Below, piece after piece: positions 1 through 43,869 of a stretch of DNA of 50,550 nt. The position numbers were made by a program, and so were the translations under genes. Source of the stretch: Candidatus Pacearchaeota archaeon (GTDB taxonomy: Archaea; Nanobdellota; Nanobdellia; Pacearchaeales; GW2011-AR1). The DNA lies in NCBI GenBank assembly GCA_018303945.1, contig JAGVXD010000002.1, positions 1 to 50,550 on the forward strand. Direction: 5' to 3'. Position 1 is the first letter of the stretch. The number at the start of each line of letters is the position of its first letter. The notes beneath the pieces are model-generated. The model made no database searches, was not told the DNA's origin, and saw nothing but the letters and a program-made list of their open reading frames with translations.

Positions 1-99
1 TAAGCACAATTTGCATAACAGCTACACTTAGAATAAACCTTTTTCCCCTCTTATTTTGCATGTGTTACAAAGCGAATAGATGTTTATAAATATTGTTAG
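1..99. repeat. 99-bp direct repeat, copy 1 (copy 2 at 1106-1204); may extend left of the window
   Basis: taagcacaatttgcataacagc...ataaatattgttag occurs identically at 1-99 and 1106-1204. Confidence 0.97.
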
Positions 100-233: not shown

Positions 234-298
234 TTTGCTGTTATTAAATAATAACTACAAATCGAAAGATTTATATATATTAATTGCTTATAAAAAAT

Positions 299-1078
299 AT
301 GAAAGTTTTAGCTAAAAAGCTAATGAATAATTCAGCCAGATTATTTGCTCTTGGAGCTCTTAGCTCTGCTCTCCTTTCTCCTTTGGAATCGCGCTGTCAG
401 GATACAAGTGCGCAATTTTCAGGGCTAGGATGGGTTTTGCAGTCTATAGGCGCACGAGAAGGAAATGTACCTGCGAGTATAATCGGCCAGGGAATGTCTG
501 CTTATGGAAATGCATTAGCAGGAAAATCAGAGGTAAATGTGAATGTTCAGTCAGGACAAACAAGCCAAGTTCCGCAGGAATTTATGAGACAGCAACAAGA
601 GCCTTTAGATATATATCTGAATCGTATAATGATGAGATGTGTAAATAGGTGGGGTAGTTTTATGTGGGCTTGCAATTTTGAAATTGATGATCCAAATCTA
701 AATCGGTCCTTTCCAAATTCTTACATAGGCATCAAACACGAGTATCCAGCAGTTTATGGAACAAATGAGCCTATCAATATCTCAATTGCACGCATGGATA
801 AAAAACTCCATAAATTCGGCGAGGAGAGAGCAGAAAGAGAAATAGGTTATTTACTATACAATGAATATGGAGATGTAACTCATAAGTCTAACACAAGAAT
901 TACTCCTCAAGACTCATATTTTATATTTTCTTTTTGCACAAAAAAAGTTGTTCAAGAAGGTAAATACTTCGTAGTATTCACAGAAGGTAGGGAGACTTTC
1001 AATCCGTATCAATTCATAGTTTCCGCATCTTCACAGAAAAATTCTGTAACAACAAATTCTAGTTCTTCAGTTAAATAA
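299..1078 (+). CDS. Secreted hypothetical protein, paralogue of 1247..2035
   Basis: ORF; the ATG at 299 lies about 25 nt after the TATA-like tttatatatat, so the track start (TTG at 284) is probably not used; N-terminal hydrophobic segment; shares I..REGNV...IGQ...YG...AG+SEVNVNV with the next gene. Confidence 0.75.
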   Translation: MKVLAKKLMNNSARLFALGALSSALLSPLESRCQDTSAQFSGLGWVLQSIGAREGNVPASIIGQGMSAYGNALAGKSEVNVNVQSGQTSQVPQEFMRQQQEPLDIYLNRIMMRCVNRWGSFMWACNFEIDDPNLNRSFPNSYIGIKHEYPAVYGTNEPINISIARMDKKLHKFGEERAEREIGYLLYNEYGDVTHKSNTRITPQDSYFIFSFCTKKVVQEGKYFVVFTEGRETFNPYQFIVSASSQKNSVTTNSSSSVK

Positions 1079-1246: not shown

Positions 1247-2035
1247 TTATTTTATATCGTAGTTAAATGATGGGGCAGTTATTTCCTTGTGAACTATCTC
1301 TCCGAGAGGCGCATTATTGGAGTTTGCAGGTTCAACTTTTCTTTCAATATTTTTCTCAACTATCCGTATTTTAGTTGTACCTAAAGGTTCGGTTGATATA
1401 TCGCTTCCTTTGATAAACCAGGCGCCCGTGTAGTCACCTGAAGGCCAATCTTTAGTATTAACAGTATAATAGCGCCGATCATTTAAAAGAACTGGCTGTA
1501 ATTGAGATATTACAGAAGCAATAATAGTCCCTCTTTCATTGAATAAGTAGAAATTAACCTCTTTTGATATTGCCTTGCATCCAACTAATCCAACAAAAGT
1601 TATCGTTTCGTCTTTAGAGCATATTCTAGTCTGTTTAAGATTCACCCCAGGTATTCTCCATGGAGCTTTATTTGAATCATTATAAACTCCAGGAAGTGTA
1701 TAGAATTCAGAAGTCTGAGTGCAATCCTCATTTTGTGAATTTTCTGTTTCGGTGACAGTTTGTCCAACATTCACATTCACTTCAGATCTGCCTGCTTGAG
1801 AAACTCCATACTGGAATGCATTCTGTCCAATCACTGCTTCTGCAACATTTCCTCTCCTTATTCCATCAACTTGCATAGCCGTGCCAAAAATCGGAAGCAT
1901 ATTCAATATCTGCGCACCAGCATCATTAGGATCGCTTCTCCAGTTAGGATTGTATGGTGTCTCGCAGCCAGTTGATAGCAATGCTACCAGTGCGCCTGTT
2001 GCAGCCATGCATGAATTGAATCGTCTGTTAATCAT
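1247..2035 (-). CDS. Putative secreted lipoprotein-like hypothetical protein
   Basis: ORF; hydrophobic N-terminus ending in lipobox-like LLSTGC; VNVNV motif shared with 299..1078. Confidence 0.75.
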   Translation of the reverse strand: MINRRFNSCMAATGALVALLSTGCETPYNPNWRSDPNDAGAQILNMLPIFGTAMQVDGIRRGNVAEAVIGQNAFQYGVSQAGRSEVNVNVGQTVTETENSQNEDCTQTSEFYTLPGVYNDSNKAPWRIPGVNLKQTRICSKDETITFVGLVGCKAISKEVNFYLFNERGTIIASVISQLQPVLLNDRRYYTVNTKDWPSGDYTGAWFIKGSDISTEPLGTTKIRIVEKNIERKVEPANSNNAPLGEIVHKEITAPSFNYDIK

Positions 2036-2107: not shown

Positions 2108-3640
2108 TTACTTACTCTTCTTCGCTTTTCCTATTGTGACTTTAAATCCCGGCTTATATCCTTCACTGCCTTCCCAGTTTACTTTAGGTCCGCAGTCTCC
2201 CAATGCAAGGCACAAATCAGCTCTCTGCTTTTTCCATTCTTCCGTCAAGCATTCACAGTTTCCTATGCACTTCTCCCCGCCAATAAGTCCTTTTTCAAAT
2301 GTCACAACACAGCTTGAACTGCCTTGCGCACAAATGGCTTTACTCTCCTCTCCTTCCCAGAACTTTAATCCCGGAGTGTTCTTCGGCACACACACGCCTC
2401 CAGTTGCATTGCCAAGTCTTATTCCAGATTTCCATATACAATCTCTGCGGTCTGTATTTTCACAATCTATCTGCTCACTCTGTGCAGTGCAATCCTGCCA
2501 GCGATTTACTCTGCATGCTGCCTGTGAAAATGGTCCTGCAGTACTTTCTATGCTGTCTTCAATGCATTCTTCCTGTCTGAAATCTGCACATTGCTCAAGT
2601 ACTTCCTCGCCGTTAATGCATATATGCTTGTAGAACCTGCTTCCGACGGCATTGTTTGCTTTATCTTCACTTCCGGCGTCGTTATAAACACACCACGATT
2701 CTCCATGTTTGTACGATTTCCCATTTTGAGTGTTTTTGCAGTTCAAGTCAGCACATATTGAATCACCATAAGTTGGACTGTTTCCTTTTTGAGCGTCACG
2801 GCAGTAACTTCCCTGCAAGTAATTACAGTTGCCGCAATTTTTAGAGTTTGCATTTGGACTGTTAGGATTGCATGCTTCGCTTTTATCAAATATTGTTGAC
2901 CAATATCTCTTGTCATCTATTTTTGAAGCATCATATATATTTGCAGTATTTCCACAGCTATCAACAAAATAAACTTCATCTTTTCCGGGCAGGCACATTG
3001 TCTCTCGCGTCGGTGCACAAGGCGTTCCTAACTCTTCCGCCGAGCATAATTTTCCAGGATAAAATTGTCCTTCTGCCTTTGTTCCATTTACTCCACCACT
3101 GCATTCTGCACGGGAAGTTACCTTGCAGGTCTTTTCAAACTCAAATTCATAAACACAAGCCCCCTTTTCCTGGTTTTGCACAGAAAGGACACATTGCACT
3201 TCATCCTGTATATTTGGCTTGTAATTTGTCTGCAAACCAAGGAATGCTGACAATCTTTTACAGCGTACTAATGATACAAATGCCGCTTGGTCACCAAGTA
3301 CACAGCATCCTAGAGAGCATTGAGGAGGAGTTTCTTCAGACCATATTCCTTTATTTGCAGTGCACACGCTTTGAGGAGTATTATCTAAACAATTTCCTTC
3401 AATGCTATTGTAGCACGTTCCGAGCTTGCAATATGATGTTGATTCGCATGAGGTTGGAACTTGCCTTGCTCCCGGCTCACATTCGTTTGCAGGAACATTT
3501 TGACAGTAAAGTACTCCATTTTTTGAATCTGCTTTAGTTTTTTCACAGCAGACAGTAGAATTTAATCCTGCCGCACTTACTGCGCTTGCTAAAATAATTG
3601 CTCCTATAATTATTATGCTAAAAATTAATTTTGTCTTCAT
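2108..3640 (-). CDS. Cys-rich secreted protein, short paralogue of 4430..8251
   Basis: ORF; ATG at 3640 gives a 4-nt ATGA overlap with the upstream gene; signal peptide; CGNCNY, KHGESWC, AACRVNRWQDC motifs shared with the large paralogue. Confidence 0.85.
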   Translation of the reverse strand: MKTKLIFSIIIIGAIILASAVSAAGLNSTVCCEKTKADSKNGVLYCQNVPANECEPGARQVPTSCESTSYCKLGTCYNSIEGNCLDNTPQSVCTANKGIWSEETPPQCSLGCCVLGDQAAFVSLVRCKRLSAFLGLQTNYKPNIQDEVQCVLSVQNQEKGACVYEFEFEKTCKVTSRAECSGGVNGTKAEGQFYPGKLCSAEELGTPCAPTRETMCLPGKDEVYFVDSCGNTANIYDASKIDDKRYWSTIFDKSEACNPNSPNANSKNCGNCNYLQGSYCRDAQKGNSPTYGDSICADLNCKNTQNGKSYKHGESWCVYNDAGSEDKANNAVGSRFYKHICINGEEVLEQCADFRQEECIEDSIESTAGPFSQAACRVNRWQDCTAQSEQIDCENTDRRDCIWKSGIRLGNATGGVCVPKNTPGLKFWEGEESKAICAQGSSSCVVTFEKGLIGGEKCIGNCECLTEEWKKQRADLCLALGDCGPKVNWEGSEGYKPGFKVTIGKAKKSK

Positions 3641-4422
3641 TCTAGTCCGTATCCTGCAGGCCATGCAAGGCTGCGAGAAGCAAACACAAATCTATCTTTG
3701 CTGACAACGTCGGAAATACTGTATATCTTGCTCCCATCACTAAGCTTCACCTTTTCTATTTTAATATTTGGATAATATCTCATATATAAAGTTGTTTCCG
3801 AGTCACCATATGTTGATTCAAAATCTATTATGCTTGTTGCAAGAGAGAGAATTTCATAAATTCCGCTTTTATACTCCAAGTCTATTGATTTATATGTTCT
3901 GGAAAAATCCTTAGTTACAGTCATGGGCAAGTTTAAAGTTATCTTTATGCTGTTAAGTGCAAGAGAAGCATTTACATTTGTATTTCCGTAGCTAATTTTA
4001 TATCCTCTGCTTTCATATTCTTCTGCAAAGCTTTTTACACATGAAGTGGCAATGGGCTGAAGCTCTCTACTAATTTCTCTTTCCACCTGCCCTATTAAAT
4101 TTGGCTGTTGCACAACGCAAGTTTTGTAATATTCAGCAGTATAGCATAAATATGATATTTTCGTATTATTGTAAACTATAAATCCCTGCGGCTGCATGCT
4201 TCCCCCCTGGCTTGTTATGTCTTCCATTATCAAGGGTATTTCCTGCCCTATGCATGAACGAAGATATTCTTCTGGTGTGGCATCTGCACTTCCACTGCCG
4301 GGCAGGTTTACTCTGGGATAAACAAGAAATATAATTAAAACCAGAATTATCGCTAATGCAATTATAATATATAATGTAACCTGCCCTTTTTTTTCTCCGT
4401 ACCGCATAATGCTCAAAGCCAC
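3637..4422 (-). CDS. Pilin-like secreted protein with one N-terminal TM segment
   Basis: GEKKGQVTLYIIIALAIILVLIIFL N-terminus; similar to 8248..9063 (EYLRSCI/ESCARD, ISYLCYTAEYYKTCV/VAYLCENIGYFETCI). Confidence 0.8.
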   Translation of the reverse strand: MALSIMRYGEKKGQVTLYIIIALAIILVLIIFLVYPRVNLPGSGSADATPEEYLRSCIGQEIPLIMEDITSQGGSMQPQGFIVYNNTKISYLCYTAEYYKTCVVQQPNLIGQVEREISRELQPIATSCVKSFAEEYESRGYKISYGNTNVNASLALNSIKITLNLPMTVTKDFSRTYKSIDLEYKSGIYEILSLATSIIDFESTYGDSETTLYMRYYPNIKIEKVKLSDGSKIYSISDVVSKDRFVFASRSLAWPAGYGLE

Positions 4423-4429
4423 GCCGCGT

Positions 4430-7400
4430 TTATAATTCTTGCGCCACGCCCCCCTTTACAATGATTGTGCATGCGCTCCCAGGATTTCTTCCAAACTTGT
4501 CTTTGCATTTTATATAATGAGTAATGGCTCGGCTGAACCCAATGCTGTGCACAAGTTCGCTTCCGCTCATTTCTGTCGCATTTGCAAATTCATAATCGCA
4601 CCCATTTGCTCCTCTTGAAGGTACAGCTGTGCTTGCTGTACATACAGATGGCTCATCCGTTATAAGAGTAAGAGAGCCGCCATTTTCGTAAACACGGGTT
4701 ACTTTAGGAGATTCGCTGTCAAGATTAACTTTAAATCTTGCTGTTTTCTCTGCAGTGTTTCCAGCCAAATCCTCGCATCTTACAGGGAGAGAGTATATTC
4801 CATCATATATTGTCTGAAATATTTGGCTGTTTGTGCTCGTCCATAGCCCTTCAGCAAAATCAATGTAACTGCTGTTTCCCCATTTATATGTGCATCTGGC
4901 ACTTCCATCTACGCCTCCGGAAGTTTTGACAACAACTTCAATTGACGCAGGAATAGTCCCAAAGTTAAGTGTCTCATTGTTTGGAACAAGACTTTCTATT
5001 ATAAGTGGATTGATTGTTCTCTGCAGGTTATATGTATAGCTTTGCGAGTTTGCGTTTCTATGTATTGTCGTATTTTGAGAGCTCACGTTAAGCCATGGCT
5101 GGTCTTGACATCTCACATAATATTTAGATGTATTTTCTGTTACAGGAAACTCTCCAGAACAGAACCAACCAAATAATTGCCTATCTTCAAAATCGTTTTC
5201 ACAGCTCATCTCATGGCTCATCAAAGAATAATCTCTGTCTATGCTGTCCCAACGGCAATCTGCAGGCTCATTTGTATATACTCCCCCATTTAGCATAGTG
5301 AGGTTATATGCTACGGTTGTCAGAGAAGGCTCGCGTTCTACAACTATCGGAGGAGTTGTGTCCGGACCTTGTTTAATGCAGAAACCAATTCCATAATCTT
5401 TTATATTTGTATTTCCTGATTTGTCCTGACATTTTATATGCAGAACATATTCTGCTCTTGCATTAGGATTAAACGACTCAAGCCCGAAGTCAGACAGACT
5501 TGGAGTCAGTAATGGCATTGTCTGATTTCTTTTGAAAAGACTGCTTCCAAAATCACTTTCCATTTCTTCAAACGCGACTCCAGTGCTATTGCTTATTCTG
5601 CATTGTCCCGGTTCATCAAGAGCTACTCCAAGAATGAGAGGTTCATAACTTTCAGGAATGCATCCATCGCTTCCAGGTTGTTTTATTCTAACCCCAAATT
5701 CAGTTTCCTCAACGCTGTAGTTTGCAAGCAGTTCTTTCATAAATCTTATGCTCGGCGCAGCCGCATCATTAGGGCTTATGTCAATACATTCAGGAGTTCC
5801 TGTTTCTTCATTAATTAACTGACACGTCTGTCCAAGAGACTCACATGAGTATCTTGAGCAAGTTTTTCCGTCACTGCCGCACTTTGCGCAGTCAGCTCCT
5901 CCACGGGGAGGCTGCCACGGTTTGCATTCAAATGTAACTTTAACTTTCTTAACTTCTCCAATTCCCAATGCTTTGAATATTACAATTACTATTATTACAA
6001 CCACTACAATAATTATTCCTATAGTTAATAACGTTCCAGCTGCAGCTCCAAAAGCTGAACCACCCATAGCTCCAAACCCGGCAATTGCTCCTCCTGCAGT
6101 TCCAGCAGCTAATAGAGAGTAAGTTATTGCTGGAGGCAAACCTCTTCCTACTCCAGTAAATTGCAGAAGCAATGAAGTTAATGCAAATCCTATAGCTGCT
6201 CCCGCCAAAGCTCCTCCAGCAGCACTAAGACCAGGATTTACAGTCAATGCCGCACCATTAGTTGTTGGTCCAAGCAGCTCCGCTCCAACATGTGCAAGAC
6301 TAAGACTTCCAAGTATTCCTGCTCCGGTAGCTGTCCCAGCAGCCCACACAAGTGCAACACCCATCATGCCTGCAACAGTTCCAGCCATTCCGAATTGAGC
6401 CGCAGGGTCTCCCGGAGTAGAAGCGCTCCCCAAACCTTCAGGAATTCCCAATGTGGCAAAGAACTCTGAAATGTCTCCGGCATCGGCATATTCTCCCTTG
6501 AAAAGTTTTTCATTTGCATATCTCTTTATATTCTCAAGATAAGCCGAATTTAATTTTGGAGATTTCTTCACTTTGTAATTTTCAGTTAAATCTCCTATGT
6601 AATTAACTTCAGCTCCGCAATCTCCAAGACTCATGCACAAATCATTCATCTGCTCTGCAAATATTTTTTTCTCACATTCACAGTTTGCTTTGCAATCCCA
6701 TCCACCCAAGCCCTTCACATAAACTACCGTGCATTTCTGATTTGCCTGTCTGCATATTATTTCAGCGCCTTCTCCTCTTTGGCTCAAGCTAAATCCGGGA
6801 CTGTATTTCGGGACACAATAATCAAACTTAAAATCTTTTCCAACTTTGACTTCTTTGACGAAACAATCCGTATTTTCCTCGCATTTCAAATCTCTCTGAT
6901 TTGACTTAGCTTGCATAGCGCTTTTTCCTATTCCCTTGTTCTCCGGATTATTTACAATGCTATTATAATCAAAACATTGCTGCCATTTGTTTATGCGGCA
7001 CGCAGCAGAAGAAAATTTTCCTCCCTGAATAGGAGTTTGTGCTTCTACACATATTTCGTTTCTATAGTCAGCACATGGCTCCGTTCTTATTTCTCCATTT
7101 ATACATACTTCTCTGAAATGTCGGCTTCCCGGCGTGTCTCTGGCTCGGTTCTTGGCTGTATCCTCACCTATAGCTCCCTGATAACTGCACCATGATTCTC
7201 CATGCTTGCGTTTCTTTCCCTGTTCGTCTATGCATGATAAGTCTTTGCACACATATTCTCCAAGAGAAACAGGATTACGTTCGTCTGCCCTCCCACATAC
7301 ACTTCCAGCTATATAATTGCAGTTTCCGCAAGTTTTTACATTTGCAAGTAAATTGGTTCCGCTTCCTAATGAACAGCTGTTATTTTTTAGCAAAACTCCG

Positions 7401-8251
7401 CCATTGTTCCAGCTTGCGGCTTTCGGGAGCGCAAAAATATTCTCCCGATTGCCGCAGCTATCAAACCAATACACCTCGTCTTTCCCAGGAAAACAGCCCG
7501 TAGTCACTTGTGGCTTGCAGGTTGTATTCAATGAAGGACTGGAACAAATCCGTTGTGAATAAAAATCTCCGTGCATGGTGCCGCATTGACTTCTTGTCGT
7601 AAACTTGCACGTCCTTTCAAATTCCTGCTCAAATACACACGCACCTTCTTCCTGCACGCTTCCCAATGCAAGGCATGCAATTTCTGTCTGAACATCCGGC
7701 CTGAATTCTTTCTTCACTCCTAAAAGTTCTGCACTTCTTACACATTGTCTTTCAGTAACAAATTTCGCCTGACTGTTTATTATGCAGCATCCTTCCCTGC
7801 ATTGAGGTATGTTTTCATATTTCTCCCCAGACCATGTTCCTCCGTGTGCAACACATGTTGATTGCGGTGAACCTGCCTGACATGTTCCTTCAAGAGGGTC
7901 ATAGCATGTTCCAGGCTTGCATGCAGCTACATTTTCCCTGGTTGAAGGCACACAATCTCCGCCGCATTCCTGATTACAGCTCTCAATAGGGTATTCCTGA
8001 CAGCTCTTTCCGCTTAGTGAATTGACGCACGTTGCCACTTCTCCTGCAGCAGATACAATTCCCTTTTCACTGAATAATAATTTTCCAATAAAATTAAGCA
8101 AAGAAACAGAACGAACATTTTTTTGGACTATTATTTTTTCCCCCGGATTTCCAGTTGTATGATTAATGATATATGCAAAAGCAAAGCTCACGCTTATTAG
8201 CAATACTATCTCAAAAACAGCCGTCTTTTTGTAATTTATTTTTTCTTTCAT
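4430..8251 (-). CDS. Giant Cys-rich secreted/membrane protein (1273 aa) with an internal Gly/Ala-rich hydrophobic region and Ig-like C-terminal part
   Basis: ORF; signal peptide; N-terminal third homologous to 2108..3640; central AAGTATGAGILGSL...GAAAGTLLTIGIIIVVVVIIVIVIF segment. Confidence 0.85.
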   Translation of the reverse strand: MKEKINYKKTAVFEIVLLISVSFAFAYIINHTTGNPGEKIIVQKNVRSVSLLNFIGKLLFSEKGIVSAAGEVATCVNSLSGKSCQEYPIESCNQECGGDCVPSTRENVAACKPGTCYDPLEGTCQAGSPQSTCVAHGGTWSGEKYENIPQCREGCCIINSQAKFVTERQCVRSAELLGVKKEFRPDVQTEIACLALGSVQEEGACVFEQEFERTCKFTTRSQCGTMHGDFYSQRICSSPSLNTTCKPQVTTGCFPGKDEVYWFDSCGNRENIFALPKAASWNNGGVLLKNNSCSLGSGTNLLANVKTCGNCNYIAGSVCGRADERNPVSLGEYVCKDLSCIDEQGKKRKHGESWCSYQGAIGEDTAKNRARDTPGSRHFREVCINGEIRTEPCADYRNEICVEAQTPIQGGKFSSAACRINKWQQCFDYNSIVNNPENKGIGKSAMQAKSNQRDLKCEENTDCFVKEVKVGKDFKFDYCVPKYSPGFSLSQRGEGAEIICRQANQKCTVVYVKGLGGWDCKANCECEKKIFAEQMNDLCMSLGDCGAEVNYIGDLTENYKVKKSPKLNSAYLENIKRYANEKLFKGEYADAGDISEFFATLGIPEGLGSASTPGDPAAQFGMAGTVAGMMGVALVWAAGTATGAGILGSLSLAHVGAELLGPTTNGAALTVNPGLSAAGGALAGAAIGFALTSLLLQFTGVGRGLPPAITYSLLAAGTAGGAIAGFGAMGGSAFGAAAGTLLTIGIIIVVVVIIVIVIFKALGIGEVKKVKVTFECKPWQPPRGGADCAKCGSDGKTCSRYSCESLGQTCQLINEETGTPECIDISPNDAAAPSIRFMKELLANYSVEETEFGVRIKQPGSDGCIPESYEPLILGVALDEPGQCRISNSTGVAFEEMESDFGSSLFKRNQTMPLLTPSLSDFGLESFNPNARAEYVLHIKCQDKSGNTNIKDYGIGFCIKQGPDTTPPIVVEREPSLTTVAYNLTMLNGGVYTNEPADCRWDSIDRDYSLMSHEMSCENDFEDRQLFGWFCSGEFPVTENTSKYYVRCQDQPWLNVSSQNTTIHRNANSQSYTYNLQRTINPLIIESLVPNNETLNFGTIPASIEVVVKTSGGVDGSARCTYKWGNSSYIDFAEGLWTSTNSQIFQTIYDGIYSLPVRCEDLAGNTAEKTARFKVNLDSESPKVTRVYENGGSLTLITDEPSVCTASTAVPSRGANGCDYEFANATEMSGSELVHSIGFSRAITHYIKCKDKFGRNPGSACTIIVKGGVAQEL

Positions 8252-9039
8252 ATTCCGGGAGGTATTGCGCAGCTTCTTATTGCAATATTCATTTCACTAT
8301 TGGAATCTTTATGAAGTATAGTATATATTTTTGTCGAGTCGGATAGGGCAGTTTTCTTTATGTCAAATTCTGGATAAAGTATCATATAACCAACATACTC
8401 AAAATAGCAATATTTTGCTTCCTGGCTGGCTATCTCATTGGCGACAAGAGCTAACTCATAGAGAGGATGCCTAATCTCAAAATTGAAGTCTTCAATGTTT
8501 TTCGTGCCTTCCTTACTGCTCAATGTCATTTTTTTATTTATTGAAACCTTTATTCTTTGAGGAGCCAGGTCTATTTTCAAGTTGGTTTCTCCAGACTCAA
8601 CCTTTATATTCTTCTTTTTCAGTTCTTCTGTGGAATCAACGAAGCAATTTTCTATTTTATTTATAGAATTATTATATATCTCTTCCTTTATCTCTGCAAG
8701 GAGTGACGGGTGCTGGTTTATGCAAGTTTCAAAATAGCCTATATTCTCGCATAAATATGCCACATTTATGTTGTCGTATTTTTTATAATTTCTGGGAGAG
8801 ACAAATCCTCCTTGGGGCGCCATTAATTTTACAGTTTCATATATTGCATCTCTGGCACAGCTTTCTATAGTTCTTTCAGGAGATTCTATATTATCAATTT
8901 CAGGCAGGGGCTTCTGCCTCAGTAATGCAAGCAGACCTACTATGGCTACAATTGCAATTGCGATAATAACCCATAATGAAACCTGTCCGGCTTTTCCGAT
9001 TATTATCTGCATATTAGATTCATTTCTTATTCTTATCAT
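8248..9039 (-). CDS. Pilin-like secreted protein, paralogue of 3637..4422
   Basis: ORF; GKAGQVSLWVIIAIAIVAIVGLLALL; ATGA overlap with 4430..8251; start could be 9063, 9039 or 9012. Confidence 0.75.
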   Translation of the reverse strand: MIRIRNESNMQIIIGKAGQVSLWVIIAIAIVAIVGLLALLRQKPLPEIDNIESPERTIESCARDAIYETVKLMAPQGGFVSPRNYKKYDNINVAYLCENIGYFETCINQHPSLLAEIKEEIYNNSINKIENCFVDSTEELKKKNIKVESGETNLKIDLAPQRIKVSINKKMTLSSKEGTKNIEDFNFEIRHPLYELALVANEIASQEAKYCYFEYVGYMILYPEFDIKKTALSDSTKIYTILHKDSNSEMNIAIRSCAIPPGI

Positions 9040-9172
9040 TCTCTTCCCTCGCCAAATTTTCAATAGCTATCTCAATTACATGAGATTTATTTCTATATTT
9101 TTTATTTTCAATCAGGGAGTTTATTGTTTTCACTATCTCTTTATCAACTGTAGCAGATATCCTCTCTTTCAT
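9020..9172 (-). CDS. Ribbon-helix-helix (CopG/Arc-like) small DNA-binding protein, 50 aa
   Basis: MKERISATVDKEIVKTINSLIENKKYRNKSHVIEIAIENLAREENDKNKK*; RHH pattern (short strand, TVD, NKSHVIEIAI helix); below the size cut-off of the ORF track. Confidence 0.75.
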   Translation of the reverse strand: MKERISATVDKEIVKTINSLIENKKYRNKSHVIEIAIENLAREENDKNKK

Positions 9173-9303
9173 AATAATACCTAATATTTTTTTATATGAT
9201 TAAATATAACTTAGTATTACTGGATAAGACTTATATTTAAAGGTTTTGACAATCTCTGTCTGGCAACACATAAACTAATATATATTGCATTATTATATTA
9301 TTA

Positions 9304-9849
9304 ATGGCCGACAAATCTCAACTCGGAATGGTTCAGGTGTTCTGGGGAAATGGAAAAGGAAAGACTACTGCAGCTCTAGGCACAGCTTTGCGTGCATGCG
9401 GAAACGGTTATACAGTGCATCTTATTCAGTTCATGAAGAACGGCACAGGAGATTTTGAGATAGATTATCCTGGAGAGCTCAAAGCCCTTGAAACTTTCAA
9501 TAATTTTTCTGTCAGGAGATTCGGCACGGGTTCATGGGTAATTGGCAAGCCGTCTAAAGCGCATTTAGGCGCCGTTAAGGAAGCGTGTGATTATCTTATT
9601 TCTTGTTTTGGAAAATATGATATAGTTATAGCAGACGAAATTCTTTATGCTGTTCAGATGGGCCTTTTAACAGAGGAAGAGGTCATATTAATAATTGGCA
9701 GGAAACCCAATAATCAAGAGCTTATTCTTACTGGTTCGCACAAACCCCTTACAAATATATTTGAGAAAGCAGATTTAGTTACAGAGATAAAGAAAATCAA
9801 GCACCCTTATGACTCGGGTACAATGGCCAGAAAGGGGCTTGAATACTAA
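9304..9849 (+). CDS. cobO: ATP:corrinoid adenosyltransferase, CobA/CobO/BtuR family
   Basis: GNGKGKTTAALGTALRACGNGYTVHLIQFMKNG P-loop and family layout. Confidence 0.88.
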   Translation: MADKSQLGMVQVFWGNGKGKTTAALGTALRACGNGYTVHLIQFMKNGTGDFEIDYPGELKALETFNNFSVRRFGTGSWVIGKPSKAHLGAVKEACDYLISCFGKYDIVIADEILYAVQMGLLTEEEVILIIGRKPNNQELILTGSHKPLTNIFEKADLVTEIKKIKHPYDSGTMARKGLEY

Positions 9850-10550
9850 GCTTTAAAGCTTGCCTCGCTTTTTCTCTCTTTTCCATCTACTATTACTGTT
9901 CTGGTTATTTTGCCTTTGCGGATTGCAAGCTCTCTAATTTGTACAGGGTCTTTTACTTCTTTTGGGAGCTCAATGTCTTCTATTGTAAGAATATGATTTA
10001 TTTTTACTTCTTTAAAGTCAGGAGCATCAAAAAACAAGTCATCAATTATTGACTGATCATTTGTTTTAAGAGAGCAGAAATCAGGAGTGGCTTCCTTATC
10101 TCCTCTAGAAGCGGGCTTTGCGCTCTTAGGGGCTTTGGCTTTTATTTTTAGATGAAATGCTCCAGTAGAAAATGACAAGGCAAAAAAAGCCTTTGGAAAT
10201 TTATCCATAAGTGAGATTATCTTTTCCGGAGTTGTCGTTGTTGATATAAGTGATTGCTTTACACCCATAAACTGTTTAATTCTCTCTATGGGGAATTCAG
10301 CTTCTTTTGTTATGTCAAATGTTGCTATTATTGCCCCAATTACAGCAATATCTCCTGAAACTTTTTCTAAGCATGCTCTTACAAGATAATTGGCAAATTC
10401 GGGCCCCACCTTTACAGAGTACTGGTTTTTTTGTTTCTTAGCTTCTAAAAGATATCTTGAAGGAAATATACCCTTGCTGAATTTAACGAATTCGCGGTGG
10501 ACTATTTCATCATTAACACCTGAAAATATTTTATTTATTACCGAATGCAT
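9846..10550 (-). CDS. Conserved-looking hypothetical protein
   Basis: ORF of 234 aa, tail-to-tail 4-nt overlap with cobO. Confidence 0.6.
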   Translation of the reverse strand: MHSVINKIFSGVNDEIVHREFVKFSKGIFPSRYLLEAKKQKNQYSVKVGPEFANYLVRACLEKVSGDIAVIGAIIATFDITKEAEFPIERIKQFMGVKQSLISTTTTPEKIISLMDKFPKAFFALSFSTGAFHLKIKAKAPKSAKPASRGDKEATPDFCSLKTNDQSIIDDLFFDAPDFKEVKINHILTIEDIELPKEVKDPVQIRELAIRKGKITRTVIVDGKERKSEASFKA

Positions 10551-10643
10551 ATACTCTATAGATAAAAATCATTTATAAATTTTTGCTGAACCATAATTTC
10601 TTTTAGGAGCGAGATTTATATACTTGTAATAATATACCAGTCC

Positions 10644-11684
10644 ATGGAATTCAACGAAAAAGATATAAAGAAATTCTCAATGCTGGCAATAATAGTTCTT
10701 TTTGCATTTCTCACATTCCTGGTAATTCGTCCAATTCTCATGGCTGTCTTAGGGGCTCTTATTTTGGCTTACTTGTTTATGCCGCTCCACATTCGTTTGC
10801 TTGATTTTGTGAAAAATCGTAGTGTTTCAGCCAGCATTGTCTCATTTATTTTAATACTTGTAGTAATAGTTCCAATATGGTTTCTGATACCTATAGTAAT
10901 TCCTCAAGTTTCAGAAATATTAAGATTTGCGCAGATAATAGACGTCCAAAGCATTATCAAAGCACTCTTCCCCACCGCTTCTGATCAGTTTACAGGTCAG
11001 ATGAGCATAGTCTTAGACGGATTTGTCAGCAATTTAGGGCGTGCAGGATTGGAGAAGCTCACTAATGCTCTTATTGAGCTTCCAAGAATAGCCCTCCAGC
11101 TTTTCATTATATGTTTTGTTTTCTTCTTCACTCTAAGAGACCATCAGCAATTTAGGTCTTTCATGGCTGATTTGTCTCCATTTGCCCCATCAAAGCAGAA
11201 AATATTAATTCAGCACTTTAAAGATGTGGCAGACTCCGTAATATACGGGCAGATAATTATAGGATTGGTGCAGGGAGCTCTTGCAGGCATAGGTTTCTTG
11301 CTCTTTGGAGTAAAGAATGCATTAGCACTCACTATCTTAGCTACTCTTCTCTCAATCACTCCAATCGTAGGTCCATTCATAGTATGGGTGCCAATATCAA
11401 TTTATTTGTTCGCTGCAGGCAATATGCCTATTGCAATAGGTTATCTTCTGTATAACGCCCTTATAGTATCAACAGTAGATAATATCCTCCGCTCTTATCT
11501 TGTTTCAAGAAGAACTAATCTCTCTCCAGCAATAATTCTTATAGGGATGGTCGGAGGTTTCTTCATCTTCGGTGTAATGGGCATAATTCTCGGTCCTCTC
11601 ATCCTAGCATATTTCCTGGTATTTTTGAAATCATACAAAGATAAGACTCTCTACACTTTATTCTCAGACAGCAAAACAGAGTAA
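10644..11684 (+). CDS. AI-2E family transporter (PerM-like permease)
   Basis: Multi-TM ORF with TPIVGPFIVWVP and GIILGPLILAYFLVFL motifs. Confidence 0.88.
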   Translation: MEFNEKDIKKFSMLAIIVLFAFLTFLVIRPILMAVLGALILAYLFMPLHIRLLDFVKNRSVSASIVSFILILVVIVPIWFLIPIVIPQVSEILRFAQIIDVQSIIKALFPTASDQFTGQMSIVLDGFVSNLGRAGLEKLTNALIELPRIALQLFIICFVFFFTLRDHQQFRSFMADLSPFAPSKQKILIQHFKDVADSVIYGQIIIGLVQGALAGIGFLLFGVKNALALTILATLLSITPIVGPFIVWVPISIYLFAAGNMPIAIGYLLYNALIVSTVDNILRSYLVSRRTNLSPAIILIGMVGGFFIFGVMGIILGPLILAYFLVFLKSYKDKTLYTLFSDSKTE

Positions 11685-11729
11685 TTCAATTGACATTAAA
11701 TTTATATATCTATTTTATATCAAAAAAGC

Positions 11730-12002
11730 ATGGGTAAAAGAGAAGATTATGTTCAACAGCTCGCAGAGTACTTAAGAAAGAACCTAAAGAAGGGATATAC
11801 AAAAGATTCTCTTCGCTGGGCTCTGATTAATCAAGGTCATTCAAAATTAGAGGTTGACAAGGCAATCAAGCGCGTAGAAGAAGAGATGAGCCGGGATGCT
11901 CCGATTCTAAGCGTTTCTTCAAATTCACAGGCATCGGCAGAGATCTTGCATCAAGATAGCGAGCCCGAGAAGAAATCTTGGTGGAATCGCTGGTTTGGAT
12001 AG
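11730..12002 (+). CDS. Small helical hypothetical protein
   Basis: 90-aa ORF, ATG about 25 nt after a TATA-like box. Confidence 0.55.
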   Translation: MGKREDYVQQLAEYLRKNLKKGYTKDSLRWALINQGHSKLEVDKAIKRVEEEMSRDAPILSVSSNSQASAEILHQDSEPEKKSWWNRWFG

Positions 12003-12062
12003 GTGCGGCGTGTATATTCTTGTACAACGATTCTTTATATATCATTTAAGCTTTTATTAATT

Positions 12063-12362
12063 ATGAATATTTCTTCGGACAATCTCGGAGCATTATCAAT
12101 TACATATCCTCTTTGCTCAAGTTGTTATTTTTCATCAGATAAAGAACGGCAGGGGATAAAGCGCATAGTCAGAAAGATTAAGGAATCTGATAAGACTCAG
12201 AACAGGATGATATGTATACGATGCCTGCGCAGAACTTCAGCCATATGCACTTGCCATCTTACATTAGATTTAACGAATAAATCAAGTAAAATTCTCTCTT
12301 GTCTTGAAACGTTTGAGTATCTGTCTAAGACCTCTTACGCTTCTAAAGTCAGTGGTAAATGA
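12063..12362 (+). CDS. Small Cys-rich (possible zinc-binding) hypothetical protein
   Basis: Internal ATG of the 12003..12362 ORF; CSSC and CIRC...CTC motifs. Confidence 0.5.
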   Translation: MNISSDNLGALSITYPLCSSCYFSSDKERQGIKRIVRKIKESDKTQNRMICIRCLRRTSAICTCHLTLDLTNKSSKILSCLETFEYLSKTSYASKVSGK

Positions 12363-12444
12363 CGCCGACGCCCGGAATCGAACCGGGAAATCCCGAAGGA
12401 AACTGGTTCTCAAGACCAGCGGAGTACCATTGTCCCACGTCGGC
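12363..12444 (-). tRNA. tRNA-Ser(UGA)
   Basis: GCCGACG...CGTCGGC acceptor stem, CTGGT-CTTGAGA-ACCAG anticodon arm, long variable arm, GGTTCGATTCC T-arm. Confidence 0.95.
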
Positions 12445-12541
12445 TTAATACATTCTCCTCTCTTAGTTATTTAAATATAACTGATATACCATATTAGCAC
12501 TCCAATTATATCTTTCGACTTATATCATTACTAAAAATTCT

Positions 12542-12650
12542 GGAGAACTAGAAGATATGGATAACTGCATTACTTATAGCTCAAGGAAGGGCAGTTATCC
12601 AGACAGAGATCTGTGTACAAAGTGAGCTACAACCTACGCAGTTCTCTATA
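12542..12650. repeat. Intergenic stem-loop element, family copy A
   Basis: Outer stem GAGAACT (12543-12549)/AGTTCTC (12640-12646); inner perfect stem TGGATAACTGC/GCAGTTATCCA; core TACAAAGTGAGCTACAACCTAC (12616-12637) shared with 22908-22929. Confidence 0.75.
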
Positions 12651-12764
12651 TTATAGACTAATAGTTTTCTTAACAAATCTTAAGATAAGATTATAAATCG
12701 CAGTGCTTGAGAAAATGCCCATACTAGAGCTTGCATATCTTCATACATTGAGGATAAAATGGAT

Positions 12765-13043: not shown

Positions 13044-13073
13044 TAGCTATCCTCCCTTGTAGTTTTTGAGTTT

Positions 13074-37948: not shown

Positions 37949-40609
37949 TTATTGTGACGTGTTTGTTGTAGTGCTTTCAGTTACTACACTAGCTGATGTT
38001 GCGCTTGTACCCTTGTACTTCTTGCCTGCCATTATATCGACAGTCTGTGTAGTTAGGTATTTTGCTGCATTAGCAGTGTCTTGAGCGTGGTATCCTGCAA
38101 CTAGAGTTGCAACCTTGCCTCCCGTTCTTGAGAACGTTTGGATCAAGAATGAACCTGCTCCGACACCAGTGCTTTGCTCAAAGCTGGCACCGCATCCGGC
38201 ACCGCCCAGCAATTCTGCAGCAAGTGTGTTTACGCAACTTCCGCCAACAACGATAAGGTTCTTGCTTGCGACTTGTGCAACTTCAGTATCCTTTACAAGG
38301 ATTGAACCGAGTTCTTTTACAACTCCTGTTCCTGTAGTGCCCGTATCACCGCCAGTTATCTCCGCAGCTTTTTCCGCAACATAAATGTTTGCGAATGCCT
38401 GCTCATCAGGATAGCTTATTATAGCTGATTTCTGATCAGAGTCTGAAGAATCAACAAGACCAACAGTACCATATAGGTCTGCTTCCTTTGTCTTCTTGCT
38501 GTCGCTTGCTAGAGATATAGCATCCCAAGTAGCATCTCCCTGCCACGATCTGATAACATCATTGACTCCAATTCCATCGTCGCCTGTTGCTCCCGGTTCG
38601 AGAGTAACAACAACTGCATGGTATTGTGCATTGTCGTCTTTTTCTTCAAAGATAACGATTGCAGGGTCAAGGATTAACGCACCGCCAGTTTCAGAGCTTC
38701 TCAAATAGACGTTAGTCTCGTTGACAGTTCCTGTACCGCGTAGAGCGTATGTCAGAGCACCTATAGTTAAGTTAACTTCACTGTTAGTGGAAGAGTTTAA
38801 TGTACCTGTTCCTGCACCACTTATTGTCCAGTTTCCAGAAATGGTAGCTAGATTTACAAATGTAGTGTCAGTGTAACCATCTCCATCAGGGAACTTTAAG
38901 TTAGACAAAACTGTTCCAGCAGCATCCCAATTATTTATATCTATTGTAACTGGTTCGTAGAACGCTAACTTTGCTCCTTTAGATGTTTTGATAGTTGGAT
39001 ACACAACCATATCGGCTGTAGCCGTACTATCTGGATAGTTCAATCGTACGAAGTTTGAGTCGTCTGACGGCGTGCCGTTATAGACTATATTGTACGATTT
39101 TCCTCCTACAACAACAGTTCCAGTGCCTTCAGATGAAAGTGTTCCTTCAATGGTATCTCCGGTAAGGACATCCGTAAAGGTGACCTTATCCTGGTTATAT
39201 CCAGTTGTTTGGTTAGTAACAGTTGTCAACTTAAGCATATGACCACTCTCCTCATTTCCAACAACGACATAGTCGTTCTTGAAAACTTTTGTTCTTTCGC
39301 TGACTGTGATGTTATGTCCATCACTGTCATGCTGAAGTTGGATAACATTGGTCAAGTTTCTTGCGAACTGTATTGTCTTTTCATTTGCACCATTTGCAGT
39401 AAATGTTACCTGTACTTTATCATCGCCGCTGTTGGATATTTTAATATCTTCACGGGCAGTGCTATTTTGAGGTATATTTAGACTTGAAAAGTCAAGCTTG
39501 AAGGTAGCAAAGACAGGGTCATTAAATGTCTGTCCAGGCTTTACCGCATCGCTATCTGAATTAGGGGCATAGACGCTTACAGTTATTTTAGTTGTGCCAG
39601 TACTCAAAGTTGCGTTACTGAATGTAACTTTTGTTCCATCAATAACTTTTGAGTCTTCGCCAACTGCTACTGCACTTCCGTCAGTCAAGGTTAATTTTTC
39701 TGCGCCTGCAATTACCGATGCGGACAACTTTAAGTTTGTCTCATCAGCATTTGTGACTGCAACTGTAATGCCTTGTACTTTCTTTGAAGCGTTTTCATTA
39801 ATCTCTTTCGTTTCGCTGTTTCCATCAGAATCTGTAACCTTAACGGTTGCAGCAGTATCTGATGCAGAGACTAATTCAACAGTGTACTCTTTTCCTCCAA
39901 TAATTACTTTGGATGAAGGAGTATCGCTGCTTAAGCTTACTTTTTCAGCAGTCTTCAGCAATACTAGATTTGTAGAATCTGTTGCAGAAGCAACAGTATA
40001 TTTCTGACCAAAGAGCTTTATGTCTGCTCCTTTGCTATCAGCATGTGTGAAGTTTACTGCTTTGTTGAAAGTAACTGTGGCGTTATAGATGTAGTTTGCA
40101 GTTGAAGTTGACGTTGCAAGTCCGAAGTCAGGATCATCTGAGCTTGTTGGTTGCTTTGCAAACGTAACTTGAGGATTAGATCCTATATCAAGTGTTTGAG
40201 TATAGGTCGCATCCGTGTTTCCAGAAAATGAGCCAGTCGCTAGAACAGTAGGTAATTCTGTCTTTGTTAAGACAGTCTTAACCGAGTTCAATGAATCGTT
40301 CACATAGATTTTAGTCCCTGTGAACAATGGAGCGGCTTCGCCTGTTACTGAGGTTGTTGTTGTTGAGCTTCCAGTAGTCGCTGTCTGTTTAGCAAGAGCA
40401 ACCTGTAGGTTGTTCGTGATGTCAACTGTCGCATAAACGTCAATGTCTGCTCCAGGCAAACTTCCAACAACTACTGCTACATCAGCATTGCCACTCTTTA
40501 CGAATGGAGCTGGATAATTAACAGCAGCTGCAAGTGCAACTGTTGAGCTTAACATGACTGCGCCAGTCAACACAGACGCAATTTTCTTAAAAGCGTATTT
40601 CATTTTCAT
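37949..40609 (-). CDS. S-layer protein
   Basis: Signal peptide; KNLIVVGGSCVNTLAAELLG and GAGSFLIQTFSRTGGKVATLVAGYHAQDTANAAKYLT, typical of archaeal S-layer proteins. Confidence 0.92.
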   Translation of the reverse strand: MKMKYAFKKIASVLTGAVMLSSTVALAAAVNYPAPFVKSGNADVAVVVGSLPGADIDVYATVDITNNLQVALAKQTATTGSSTTTTSVTGEAAPLFTGTKIYVNDSLNSVKTVLTKTELPTVLATGSFSGNTDATYTQTLDIGSNPQVTFAKQPTSSDDPDFGLATSTSTANYIYNATVTFNKAVNFTHADSKGADIKLFGQKYTVASATDSTNLVLLKTAEKVSLSSDTPSSKVIIGGKEYTVELVSASDTAATVKVTDSDGNSETKEINENASKKVQGITVAVTNADETNLKLSASVIAGAEKLTLTDGSAVAVGEDSKVIDGTKVTFSNATLSTGTTKITVSVYAPNSDSDAVKPGQTFNDPVFATFKLDFSSLNIPQNSTAREDIKISNSGDDKVQVTFTANGANEKTIQFARNLTNVIQLQHDSDGHNITVSERTKVFKNDYVVVGNEESGHMLKLTTVTNQTTGYNQDKVTFTDVLTGDTIEGTLSSEGTGTVVVGGKSYNIVYNGTPSDDSNFVRLNYPDSTATADMVVYPTIKTSKGAKLAFYEPVTIDINNWDAAGTVLSNLKFPDGDGYTDTTFVNLATISGNWTISGAGTGTLNSSTNSEVNLTIGALTYALRGTGTVNETNVYLRSSETGGALILDPAIVIFEEKDDNAQYHAVVVTLEPGATGDDGIGVNDVIRSWQGDATWDAISLASDSKKTKEADLYGTVGLVDSSDSDQKSAIISYPDEQAFANIYVAEKAAEITGGDTGTTGTGVVKELGSILVKDTEVAQVASKNLIVVGGSCVNTLAAELLGGAGCGASFEQSTGVGAGSFLIQTFSRTGGKVATLVAGYHAQDTANAAKYLTTQTVDIMAGKKYKGTSATSASVVTESTTTNTSQ

Positions 40610-41010: not shown

Positions 41011-41370
41011 ATGGCTCAAAAAACAAGAACTCGCGAGATAAACATCGTCGATAAAGGCGGCACTTTCAATACTTTTTTTAGAAAGCTCACAGGCGATGAG
41101 CATGAGTATGATTTTGAAGGTCTTGAAATGTTGAGAAAATTGCTTAGCAATGAGAGAGCACGTGTTTTGCACACAATAAAATATCAAAATCCTCGTTCTC
41201 TTTACGAGCTGGCAAAATATCTGAAAAGAGACTTCAAGTCAGTCTCTGATGACATCAAATTATTGGAGCGTTTTGGCTTTGTTGAAATGGTTTCAGAAAG
41301 AACCGGAAAGAGGGAGCGCTTGCATCCGACATTGGTTGTAGAACGTCTTATCATTAATATAAAAATTTAA
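41011..41370 (+). CDS. Winged-helix transcriptional regulator
   Basis: NPRSLYELAKYLKRDFKSVSDDIKLLERFGFVEMVSERTGKRERLHPTLVVERL. Confidence 0.82.
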   Translation: MAQKTRTREINIVDKGGTFNTFFRKLTGDEHEYDFEGLEMLRKLLSNERARVLHTIKYQNPRSLYELAKYLKRDFKSVSDDIKLLERFGFVEMVSERTGKRERLHPTLVVERLIINIKI

Positions 41371-41888
41371 CTGCATATTTTAAGAACAGTTTTTATACTT
41401 CCTCTTGAACTGCTGTCCCTTATTATAAATTCATCAGCCGCATATCCGCCGCCGCATTTTCCTTTTTCAAATCTTGCAATTAAGTTTCCACTGCTGGAAT
41501 TGCTTCCAGTTTGGTAATAGATTTCTGCAATATATCCTTTTAATGAGCTATCTTCTCCGGCATTCCATGCAGACTCTATCATTGTGCTGAATGTTTTGTT
41601 GAATAAATCACATACTTTTTCACCTGAAGGAAGACACTCTTGCCCGCTATTTCTCCCGCATTCAATTAAAAGCCCATCCATATCCAGATAAGAGAAAGAC
41701 TGATCTAAAGAGCATTCGCTTGTCGTTTTGTACGTGCTCTCAAGAAACTGTCTTACATCTAAGCTACCCGTGGATGAAGAGCTTTCCTGGCGCAAAACAA
41801 TTCCAAGTATAAACAATAGGACTATACTTACAATTATGACTATTGCTACAAACCCGACTGCTTCTTCCTGTCCTTTCTTTTCAATCAT
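41367..41888 (-). CDS. Pilin-like secreted protein
   Basis: MIEKKGQEEAVGFVAIVIIVSIVLLFILGIVL; ATG 41888 preferred over TTG 41918. Confidence 0.75.
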   Translation of the reverse strand: MIEKKGQEEAVGFVAIVIIVSIVLLFILGIVLRQESSSSTGSLDVRQFLESTYKTTSECSLDQSFSYLDMDGLLIECGRNSGQECLPSGEKVCDLFNKTFSTMIESAWNAGEDSSLKGYIAEIYYQTGSNSSSGNLIARFEKGKCGGGYAADEFIIRDSSSRGSIKTVLKICS

Positions 41889-41938
41889 TTTAAGCTTCTC
41901 CCAGTCCTTTCTTTTCAATCATTTTAAGCTTCTCCCAG
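41871..41938. repeat. Perfect 34-bp tandem duplication at a gene junction
   Basis: tcctttcttttcaatcattttaagcttctcccag at 41871-41904 and 41905-41938. Confidence 0.97.
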
Positions 41939-42440
41939 CAGCATATACTCTCCCTAGAGAGCATTTAACATGGGTGCTTTTCCAATGGCATAATGAGACA
42001 AATGCGGTGGAAGTAACGCCGTAATCTTCCTTATTTTTTATAAGTGTAATCTTGTTGCATTCAGGATATATGCTTTGAATGCATTCTTCCTCTGGCAAGA
42101 TAGGATATATTTGCTCAAAAGCAAGATAATCCAATTCCCACAGATTTGATTCACTTGTATTTCTAATCTGCTGTTTTAAGGCCATTGCCTTATCTAAATC
42201 TACGCATCCGTTGCATTCAGACCAGCTAAGTTCAGGAACAGATGCAATTTTTCTTGCAATTGCTTGGGCCTCTTCTTCTCTTAGATTTTCTACAGAATCG
42301 GTAAGGCGCGAGCCGGCAATAGAGAGATAAATTATGCTTACCAGGGCAAAAAATATGAATAAGGCTACTAAAATAAAAGCCATTTCCTGTATCTTTATCT
42401 GTCCAAGCTTCATGCCATGCGCTCCTTCCATAATTGGCAT
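41919..42440 (-). CDS. Pilin-like secreted protein
   Basis: MKLGQIKIQEMAFILVALFIFFALVSIIYL N-terminus (likely start at the internal Met). Confidence 0.72.
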   Translation of the reverse strand: MPIMEGAHGMKLGQIKIQEMAFILVALFIFFALVSIIYLSIAGSRLTDSVENLREEEAQAIARKIASVPELSWSECNGCVDLDKAMALKQQIRNTSESNLWELDYLAFEQIYPILPEEECIQSIYPECNKITLIKNKEDYGVTSTAFVSLCHWKSTHVKCSLGRVYAAGRSLK

Positions 42441-43384
42441 ATTAAGTTATTGTTTTCTCTGTCTAGATTTATCGCAATTTGTTTAAGATTAGAAATGTCT
42501 CTTGAAGTAGCATTCTTAGCGCTTTTGCTATATATTGCTAACATAGGTTGCAGAGCGCTTCCGCATCCTGAAGAGGAAGAAGAGATTATAGAGATTTTAG
42601 TCAAATAAAGTTCTGCAAGACTAGAGCCGCGCTTCATCATTCTCTGTACCTCGCATTCATATATAGATGATTCAGCAAATATGGCTCCATATATTAAAGC
42701 TCCTTCATAATATAATCCTCTTCCTTCCCTGAAAACTCTTTGAGCAGCAGTATCAACGGAAACATCACATCTCTTTCCCTGACTGACTGCTCCTGTTGAA
42801 AAGCAGACCATCGTGCTATTTTTAGGACATAAATTGCTTGAGCCAGTTATTGTAAGAGCGCTCTCGTTTATGCCAAGAGAACTTAACTCATCTTCTATTT
42901 CTGTTGGGGGATTAAGAAAGCAGTATGGTTCATTCCACATGACTATTACATCGCCTATCTTAAATGGAAATGTAAATGGCTTTACTAAAAGATAGAATTT
43001 CTCTCCCTCTAAATTAGCAGAGGAAAAAATATACTTGTTTGTTATTTTTTTAGGAACCCCGAAATCCTGCCAAGGTTTTCCTATGCCGGAGCGCTGGGCT
43101 ATTCTTATAGATTGTTCTCCAAAATTTCCAGAAACAGAACAGCCCATAGATATTCTAGTCTGGACAGGAAAACTTATTGTTCCCGGTTTACTTGCCGACT
43201 CAATAGAAGTCTCAAGAGGATGAAGCAAAGTCCCAAGAATCTGTGCCGCACTGCTATCTTCGTAATTTCTTTCAGTGCTTGTAATGCGTGTAACAGCATA
43301 AATAGCGAGCACTATCACCATCCCCCCAACAATTACTGAAAATATCCACCCAAAACTCAATTCTATCCCTCTTTTTTCTTTCAT
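42410..43384 (-). CDS. Pilin-like secreted protein
   Basis: MKEKRGIELSFGWIFSVIVGGMVIVLAIYAV; overlaps neighbours. Confidence 0.75.
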   Translation of the reverse strand: MKEKRGIELSFGWIFSVIVGGMVIVLAIYAVTRITSTERNYEDSSAAQILGTLLHPLETSIESASKPGTISFPVQTRISMGCSVSGNFGEQSIRIAQRSGIGKPWQDFGVPKKITNKYIFSSANLEGEKFYLLVKPFTFPFKIGDVIVMWNEPYCFLNPPTEIEDELSSLGINESALTITGSSNLCPKNSTMVCFSTGAVSQGKRCDVSVDTAAQRVFREGRGLYYEGALIYGAIFAESSIYECEVQRMMKRGSSLAELYLTKISIISSSSSGCGSALQPMLAIYSKSAKNATSRDISNLKQIAINLDRENNNLICQLWKERMA

Positions 43385-43869
43385 GGTTTTAGTGTTACTA
43401 GATTATCGCTGCTTCTTTCCTTTATTAATCTTAAAGATACTTCTCCTTCTTTTGTTTTGACACAGAATGACTTAGGTATGCTGGCATGTTCAAGCTTGTG
43501 GAACCCAAGATTGCTGTCACATGCTCTTAATGTAGGATACATAAATACATTATAATCAAATTCACTATATCTTTGCAAGACTCTTTGTTCATTGGAATAG
43601 TTTGAGATGCTAAGTAGTTGAGGACTGCCAAAGCACACACTTTCAACCTTTCCAGACAAACCACTCCTGAATATTTTTTCAGCCAAAGGAGACCTCCAGA
43701 CATTATCAACTTCTTTTTCCAAGTCATCATAAAATAATTGTATTTTAAGACACTCCCCAGTATCCAAGAACCTGGTTATGATATAGAATGCAACTGCAAC
43801 TGTTACAATAATAAGTATAATTGAAAATATCATCCCAAAAGAAAGCTGAAGCTGACCTCTTTTTTGCAT
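43381..43869 (-). CDS. Pilin-like secreted protein
   Basis: MQKRGQLQLSFGMIFSIILIIVTVAVAFYII; ATGA overlap with next gene. Confidence 0.75.
   Translation of the reverse strand: MQKRGQLQLSFGMIFSIILIIVTVAVAFYIITRFLDTGECLKIQLFYDDLEKEVDNVWRSPLAEKIFRSGLSGKVESVCFGSPQLLSISNYSNEQRVLQRYSEFDYNVFMYPTLRACDSNLGFHKLEHASIPKSFCVKTKEGEVSLRLIKERSSDNLVTLKP

Follow-up and report, generated by a model that had tools for sequence, protein, structure and literature searches.

Gene organization in the window

The source genome belongs to a pacearchaeote (DPANN, Nanobdellota), a very small archaeon of the symbiont type, and comprises 0.8 Mb in 22 contigs. We analyzed a stretch of 50,550 nucleotides from one of these contigs, referred to here as the window. 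Five open reading frames proposed by an earlier sequence-only reading were all found on the minus strand at the expected coordinates. In the order of transcription, they encode an RHH (CopG-type) regulator, a protein with a pilin-type signal (P1), a giant Cys-rich protein (CG), a second pilin-signal protein (P2), and a shorter Cys-rich protein (C) (Table 1). The 4-nt ATGA junctions described inside the two P/C pairs are also present, joining P1 to the giant at 8251-8248 and P2 to the short C at 3640-3637. As annotated, P1 starts at 9039 and overlaps the RHH gene by 20 nt; an ATG at 9012, which lies 7 nt beyond the RHH stop, is a start that agrees better with relatives. Similarly, the start of P2 may be the ATG at 4407 instead of the GTG at 4422.

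Table 1. Features of the P/C pairs and of the S-layer gene cluster, in window coordinates.
Feature	Position	Strand	Remarks
RHH (CopG-type) regulator gene, operon head	9020..9172	-	50 aa; Pfam RHH_1
P1, pilin-signal partner protein	8248..9039	-	probable start 9012; TM helix, then predicted extracellular alpha/beta domain; 6 Cys
CG, giant	4430..8251	-	1273 aa, 64 Cys
P2, second pilin-signal partner	3637..4422	-	probable start 4407; 4 Cys
C (short copy), Cys-rich	2108..3640	-	510 aa; counterpart of the C half of the CG giant
Lipobox-bearing protein gene between C and G	1247..2035	-	without Pfam or NCBIfam match
G (start), split-off back half of second copy	1..61	-	788 aa, 21 Cys; remainder on contig C1, 8418-10784
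X1, small pilin-signal protein (KRGQL...)	43381..43869	-	162 aa; HMM of relatives, 4e-36
X2, pilin-signal protein (KRGIEL...)	42410..43384	-	324 aa; 7e-50 in whole-genome search, 2e-92 with HMM of relatives
X3, pilin-signal protein (KLGQIK...)	41919..42440	-	173 aa; 2.6e-44
X4, pilin-signal protein (KKGQEE...)	41367..41918	-	183 aa; 7.6e-35
Winged-helix regulator between X4 and S-layer gene	41011..41370	+	Pfam HVO_A0114, 61.9 bits, over cut-off
S-layer protein gene	37949..40609	-	886 aa; Pfam S_layer_C, 41.6 bits (cut-off 23.9)

The product of the RHH gene scores 24.6 bits against Pfam RHH_1 (cut-off 20.5). Among related loci, such a gene occurs in 11 of approximately 71, always ahead of the first P gene and translationally coupled to it. 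The regulator is present at the operon head, as had been proposed, but it does not belong to the system in general. We rejected it as a defining component of the P/C system because only a minority of relatives carry it.

Roughly 32 kb from the P/C pairs, the window contains a cluster of four small proteins with pilin-type N-termini (X1 to X4), a winged-helix regulator, and an S-layer gene. The regulator takes the same position in relatives (for example, locus L090, 15859-16218). Just upstream of X1, with one small gene between, a membrane-anchored trypsin-like (HtrA-type) protease is encoded at 44193-45080 on the minus strand.

A split second copy and a larger locus

In relatives, the second copy consists of P, C (~43 Cys), and G (~21 Cys), a sum that corresponds to the 64-Cys giant, and in some genomes this copy is one fused gene. 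The missing G of the source genome resides on the minus strand of another contig, C1. The last 77 bases of C1 are identical to the first 77 bases of the window. This exact overlap of contig ends implies that G begins at window position 61 (61..59) and continues off the window edge. On C1, G is followed by genes for a resolvase and lysyl-tRNA synthetase, which is the order found in a relative (L088). Once the back half had been located across the contig end, the short C was no longer tenable as a complete stand-alone protein. The Cys-rich reading frame that had been taken as a separate protein actually represents the first half of a giant gene that is split in two.

The order P-CG-P-C-(G)-X1-X2-X3-X4-S-layer is conserved in more than 20 related loci, and the S-layer gene follows X4 in about 20. 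The pair block and the X1-X4/S-layer block are one locus type, which is divided in the source genome. The unit does contain the two pairs originally noted, but it is larger than described, as G, X1 to X4, and the S-layer gene also belong to it.

Several other genes occur within or near these loci. The products of window positions 284-1078 (plus strand) and 1247-2035 (minus strand) are related secreted or lipobox proteins with the common motif IGQ...YG...AG+SEVNVNV, and in close relatives lipobox-bearing proteins are likewise placed between C and G. Small two-gene modules resembling MNT/HEPN toxin-antitoxin systems, as judged by eye, recur in the gap that separates P from C or C from G; insertions of this kind inside the surface operon were seen in L042, L045, L048, L067, L078, L081, and L082. 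A few kilobases from the G gene on C1 (L058, 683-5054) lies an apparent compact CRISPR-Cas locus, whose genes, also named by eye, include Cas1-, Cas2-, and Cas4-like genes and one for an 843-aa Cas12/TnpB-like protein.

P and C are paired and were duplicated together

The short C is 46% identical to the giant (E 5e-85) and P1 is 31% identical to P2 (E 1e-36). Both values are far above chance, and thus homology between the two pairs is readily detectable, in agreement with their proposed paralogy. Each of the motifs CGNCNY, KHGESWC, and AACR[VI]N[KR]WQ[DQ]C that had been assigned to the Cys-rich domains is found in both C copies.

For the scan of the genome collection, the query was a narrowed alignment, the first having been too diverse. 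Of 135 testable C genes from 80 fetched loci, 133 have a P gene upstream on the same strand, including 89 at a distance of no more than 120 nt. Among 279 genomes sampled from the phylum, 92 contain C, and every one of these also contains P, compared with 152 of the 187 genomes that lack C (Fisher p 4e-7). The pair therefore co-occurs across genomes, and C homologues are not regularly found without a P partner.

The P and C trees contain an identical split that sets 75 second-copy pairs apart, with support of 0.989 (P) and 0.999 (C). This matching bipartition upholds the earlier suggestion that the pair was duplicated as a unit. Distances in P and C are also correlated by mirrortree (r 0.81; permuted maximum 0.17); this correlation is inflated by shared species history, of which the common paralogue split is independent. 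Families f13, f38, f56, and f57 encode P, C, and G together in a single ORF (~1,270 aa) or have a P-C fusion with a separate G. Gene fusion is standard evidence of physical association. On the basis of the tree split, the adjacency, and the P-C-G fusions, P and C almost certainly act together, as had been supposed.

P has a prepilin-type signal and a domain that may be a new fold

The signal segment of P follows the pattern [G/A/S]-Q-[V/I/L]-x-x-[F/W/Y], with the Q invariant in 97 of 97 proteins. Class III signals consist of one or more charged residues, G, A, or S at position -1, and a hydrophobic helix. Residue -1 of P is G in 71 cases, A in 15, and S in 11, and is followed by Q and a TM helix; P thus carries a class III signal. 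Cleavage-site residues of this kind, G, A, or S before Q, suit the archaeal prepilin peptidase. At position +5, the 97 proteins have F (75), W (13), Y (5), or I (4), and Glu+5 is absent. Minor pilins often lack Glu+5.

Cysteines of P are gained and lost in pairs. Across the 97 proteins, with counts running from both residues present to both absent, the pairs are C61-C132 (95/0/0/2), C97-C106 (88/1/0/8), and C211-C257 (40/0/0/57). Such covariation is strong evidence that P contains disulfides and hence that this domain is outside the cell.

The AlphaFold model of P1 (pLDDT 92.6) has a helix at residues 16-42, a low-confidence break at 43-53, a second helix at 54-76, and an alpha/beta domain. 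A pilin fold, with a long continuous alpha1 packed on a beta-sheet, was not seen in this model. A fold search of the PDB with the P model produced no match (best E 9e-3, TM-score below 0.2), and the single match in BFVD (E 6e-4) also has a TM-score below 0.2 and is not meaningful. The globular domain has no sequence match in Pfam, NCBIfam, or the PDB, either with single proteins or with a profile. Thus, the label "pilin-like" fits the signal segment of P but not residue +5, the modeled fold, or any family or PDB match. The modeled domain may represent a new fold. Given that Glu+5 is missing, the helix is interrupted, and neither the pilin fold nor another PDB fold is matched, P may not enter a filament.

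Domain architecture of the giant protein

The giant begins with a hydrophobic segment, which is followed by the Cys-rich C domain (~74-588), a flexible Gly-rich linker (~599-679), hydrophobic helices (~673-761), and a string of Ig-like beta-sandwich domains, G (~767-1269). A structural model of residues 74-1273 (pLDDT 83.4) reproduces this layout from the C domain through the hydrophobic helices to the row of beta-sandwiches, and the linker is disordered in it. Foldseek searches with G matched strings of Ig, FnIII, cadherin, and large-adhesin domains, including those of a grappling-hook protein (best E 7e-12). There are three or four hydrophobic helices between C and G. If their number were odd, G would be located inside the cell.

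For the C domain, no known relative turned up in the sequence libraries searched (Pfam, NCBIfam, and the PDB). Searches of these libraries with single proteins and with P and CG profiles gave at most a sub-threshold match to Big_13 in the giant. Matches to PsaL and STEVOR were rejected as chance alignments to the hydrophobic stretch. Neither C nor G matches PilY1 or DUF2341 (no Pfam hit over the cut-off, and only generic Ig, FnIII, and cadherin strings from Foldseek). C was not found in the viral contigs of IMG/VR, and thus it is not virus-borne there.

The Gly/Ala-rich hydrophobic stretch between head and stalk (~614-761) could be read as part of a contact-dependent toxin or predation device, in which these segments insert into neighboring cells, and toxin-antitoxin-like genes are often inserted in the locus. 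We regard this as very improbable, given that a variable toxin C-terminus and an immunity gene are both lacking, that C and G are conserved throughout the family, and that the IMG/VR viral contigs do not carry C.

P genes beyond the Cys-rich partner

P is present in 244 of the 279 sampled genomes. We inspected 23 P genes without C, a non-random set drawn from the better-scoring P matches, and in 20 of these the next gene downstream encodes a large secreted protein, signal-bearing and unrelated in sequence. The background frequency of large secreted genes is 6 in 139 (p 2e-17). This result suggests that P is probably not tied to one partner but serves interchangeable surface proteins in general.

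A third pair occurs in the source genome on contig C17 (L057), where an extended P-like gene (6292-8157; 621 aa) overlaps a giant gene (8154-13964; 1,936 aa) by 4 nt. Similar pairs of a long P and a giant were observed in other families (L234, L240, L241, and L247). In two families of the same order, L243 (1-1635) and L244 (128-1948), P is followed by a secreted protein with 41-43 Cys that the C profile search did not report; these proteins are possibly diverged C.

A proposed role in surface display

The source genome contains matches over cut-off to T2SSE, T2SSF (two genes), and Peptidase_A24, as well as a Pilin_N-like protein and VKOR. The T2SSE, T2SSF, Peptidase_A24, and VKOR genes are unlinked to the P/C locus, which has no pilus ATPase or platform genes of its own. 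The type IV pilus ATPase gene (T2SSE; contig C18, L229 2121-5072) is interrupted by an intein with a LAGLIDADG domain. Because 268 of the 279 phylum genomes encode a prepilin peptidase, its presence does not discriminate; its co-occurrence with P was set aside as an uninformative test of a pilus model. The cell-surface role suggested by the earlier reading is supported by the Ig/adhesin-type domains of G, the paired cysteines, the VKOR in the genome, and the linked S-layer gene.

By analogy with known minor pilins, we propose, with a probability of roughly 0.5, that P acts like a minor pilin, as an adaptor by which its own giant adhesin is displayed or released at the cell surface. The two pairs stand at one end of a surface locus that is conserved in Pacearchaeota, (P-CG)-(P-C-G)-X1-X2-X3-X4-S-layer. 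In this model, P is a membrane protein with a prepilin-type signal, and its disulfide-bonded outer domain would bind the giant encoded directly downstream. CG is an adhesin-like surface protein, with the Cys-rich domain as its head and the Ig domains as its stalk. After processing by the prepilin peptidase of the genome, P would place or release its giant at the cell surface. It would probably do so together with X1 to X4 as additional minor subunits and by means of the ATPase and platform of the type IV pilus, which are encoded elsewhere in the genome. The Cys-rich head would pass the S-layer and contact other cells or surfaces, and each pair would present one of two related heads.

The main rival of this adaptor model is a static scaffold. 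Here, P and CG would stay together permanently as a complex that is anchored in the membrane and connects it to the S-layer, X1 to X4 would be additional membrane subunits, and there would be neither a filament nor dynamic display. An S-layer gene lies directly downstream in about 20 loci and is also present in the window, CG has internal hydrophobic helices, the P domain lacks a pilin fold, and the locus lacks a pilus ATPase, all of which speak for such a scaffold. Against it stands the prepilin-type signal kept in 97 of 97 P proteins, with similar signals in X1 to X4, and the pairing of P with many unrelated secreted proteins is better suited to an adaptor. We therefore consider the scaffold rather unlikely.

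The translational coupling and the presence of one P per giant could also reflect a dedicated export or folding partner, in which P is a membrane chaperone for a large disulfide-rich client and remains outside the final structure. The clients are unrelated in sequence, VKOR is present, and the P cysteines are paired, all of which could be expected of such a chaperone. However, P-C-G fusions would hold P on the mature product, and the P cysteines covary as structural pairs with no CXXC active site. Moreover, if Sec and VKOR suffice, different clients would need no common chaperone. This explanation appears improbable, and the adaptor model is retained as the preferred reading.

Relationship to known systems

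The P/C system resembles known pairs of a co-encoded pilin-signal protein and a surface partner. TcpF is a secreted protein to which the cognate minor pilin TcpB binds, and CofB likewise binds CofJ (PMC9565799). As in those systems, a protein with a prepilin signal is co-encoded with a specific secreted partner, here in 133 of 135 cases, and partners vary among species while the role of the minor pilin is conserved. In the present system, by contrast, a giant Cys-rich/Ig protein serves as the partner, neither a recognizable pilin fold nor Glu+5 is seen in P, the P gene lies immediately upstream of the partner gene, and the pair shows fusion and tandem duplication.

Kil pili have interchangeable tips (PMC12075869). 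In Kil/Tad pili, as in the system proposed here, several alternative tip modules, including some pilin-signal genes, would serve one assembly machine. However, the P/C locus has no ATPase or platform, Kil/Tad tips are minor-pilin complexes and not P plus a giant, and the likeness may not be one of homology. The PilY1-like/DUF2341 tip adhesins of archaeal type IV pili (PMC4858521) are similar in that a large surface protein is encoded with several class III signal proteins, but C and G have no DUF2341 or other Pfam domain over cut-off, and no homology to PilY was found.

A secreted cluster found only in DPANN, cls.004306 (NEQ255), was listed in 2019 beside arCOG02487 and predicted S-layer/Ig proteins (PMC6393860, PMC5898192). 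The published entry takes up a single row of a table and gives neither an anatomy nor a rule of pairing; the cluster may correspond to P or to a neighbor of P. No curated family in Pfam or NCBIfam, PDB entry, or paper within the open-license literature on Pacearchaeota and DPANN describes P, C, or the pair.

Implications for DPANN cell surfaces

It is conceivable, although we hold this view tentatively, that P founds a surface-display or secretion system throughout DPANN. A pilin-signal adaptor with a new fold, conserved across the phylum (244 of 279 genomes sampled), would serve whichever giant secreted protein is encoded beside it, the displayed proteins would be freely replaced, and the Cys-rich/Ig giant would be the Pacearchaeota version and a main tool for contact with partner cells.

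To our knowledge, little is understood of how DPANN archaea recognize and hold partner cells, and most of their surface proteins lack annotation. The rule that a P gene precedes a giant partner marks surface proteins across the phylum. The P domain itself, confidently modeled but unlike any known structure, is a further outcome, as is a concrete hypothesis of binding. If P is a general adaptor, its partners would constitute a list of candidate contact proteins for each genome.
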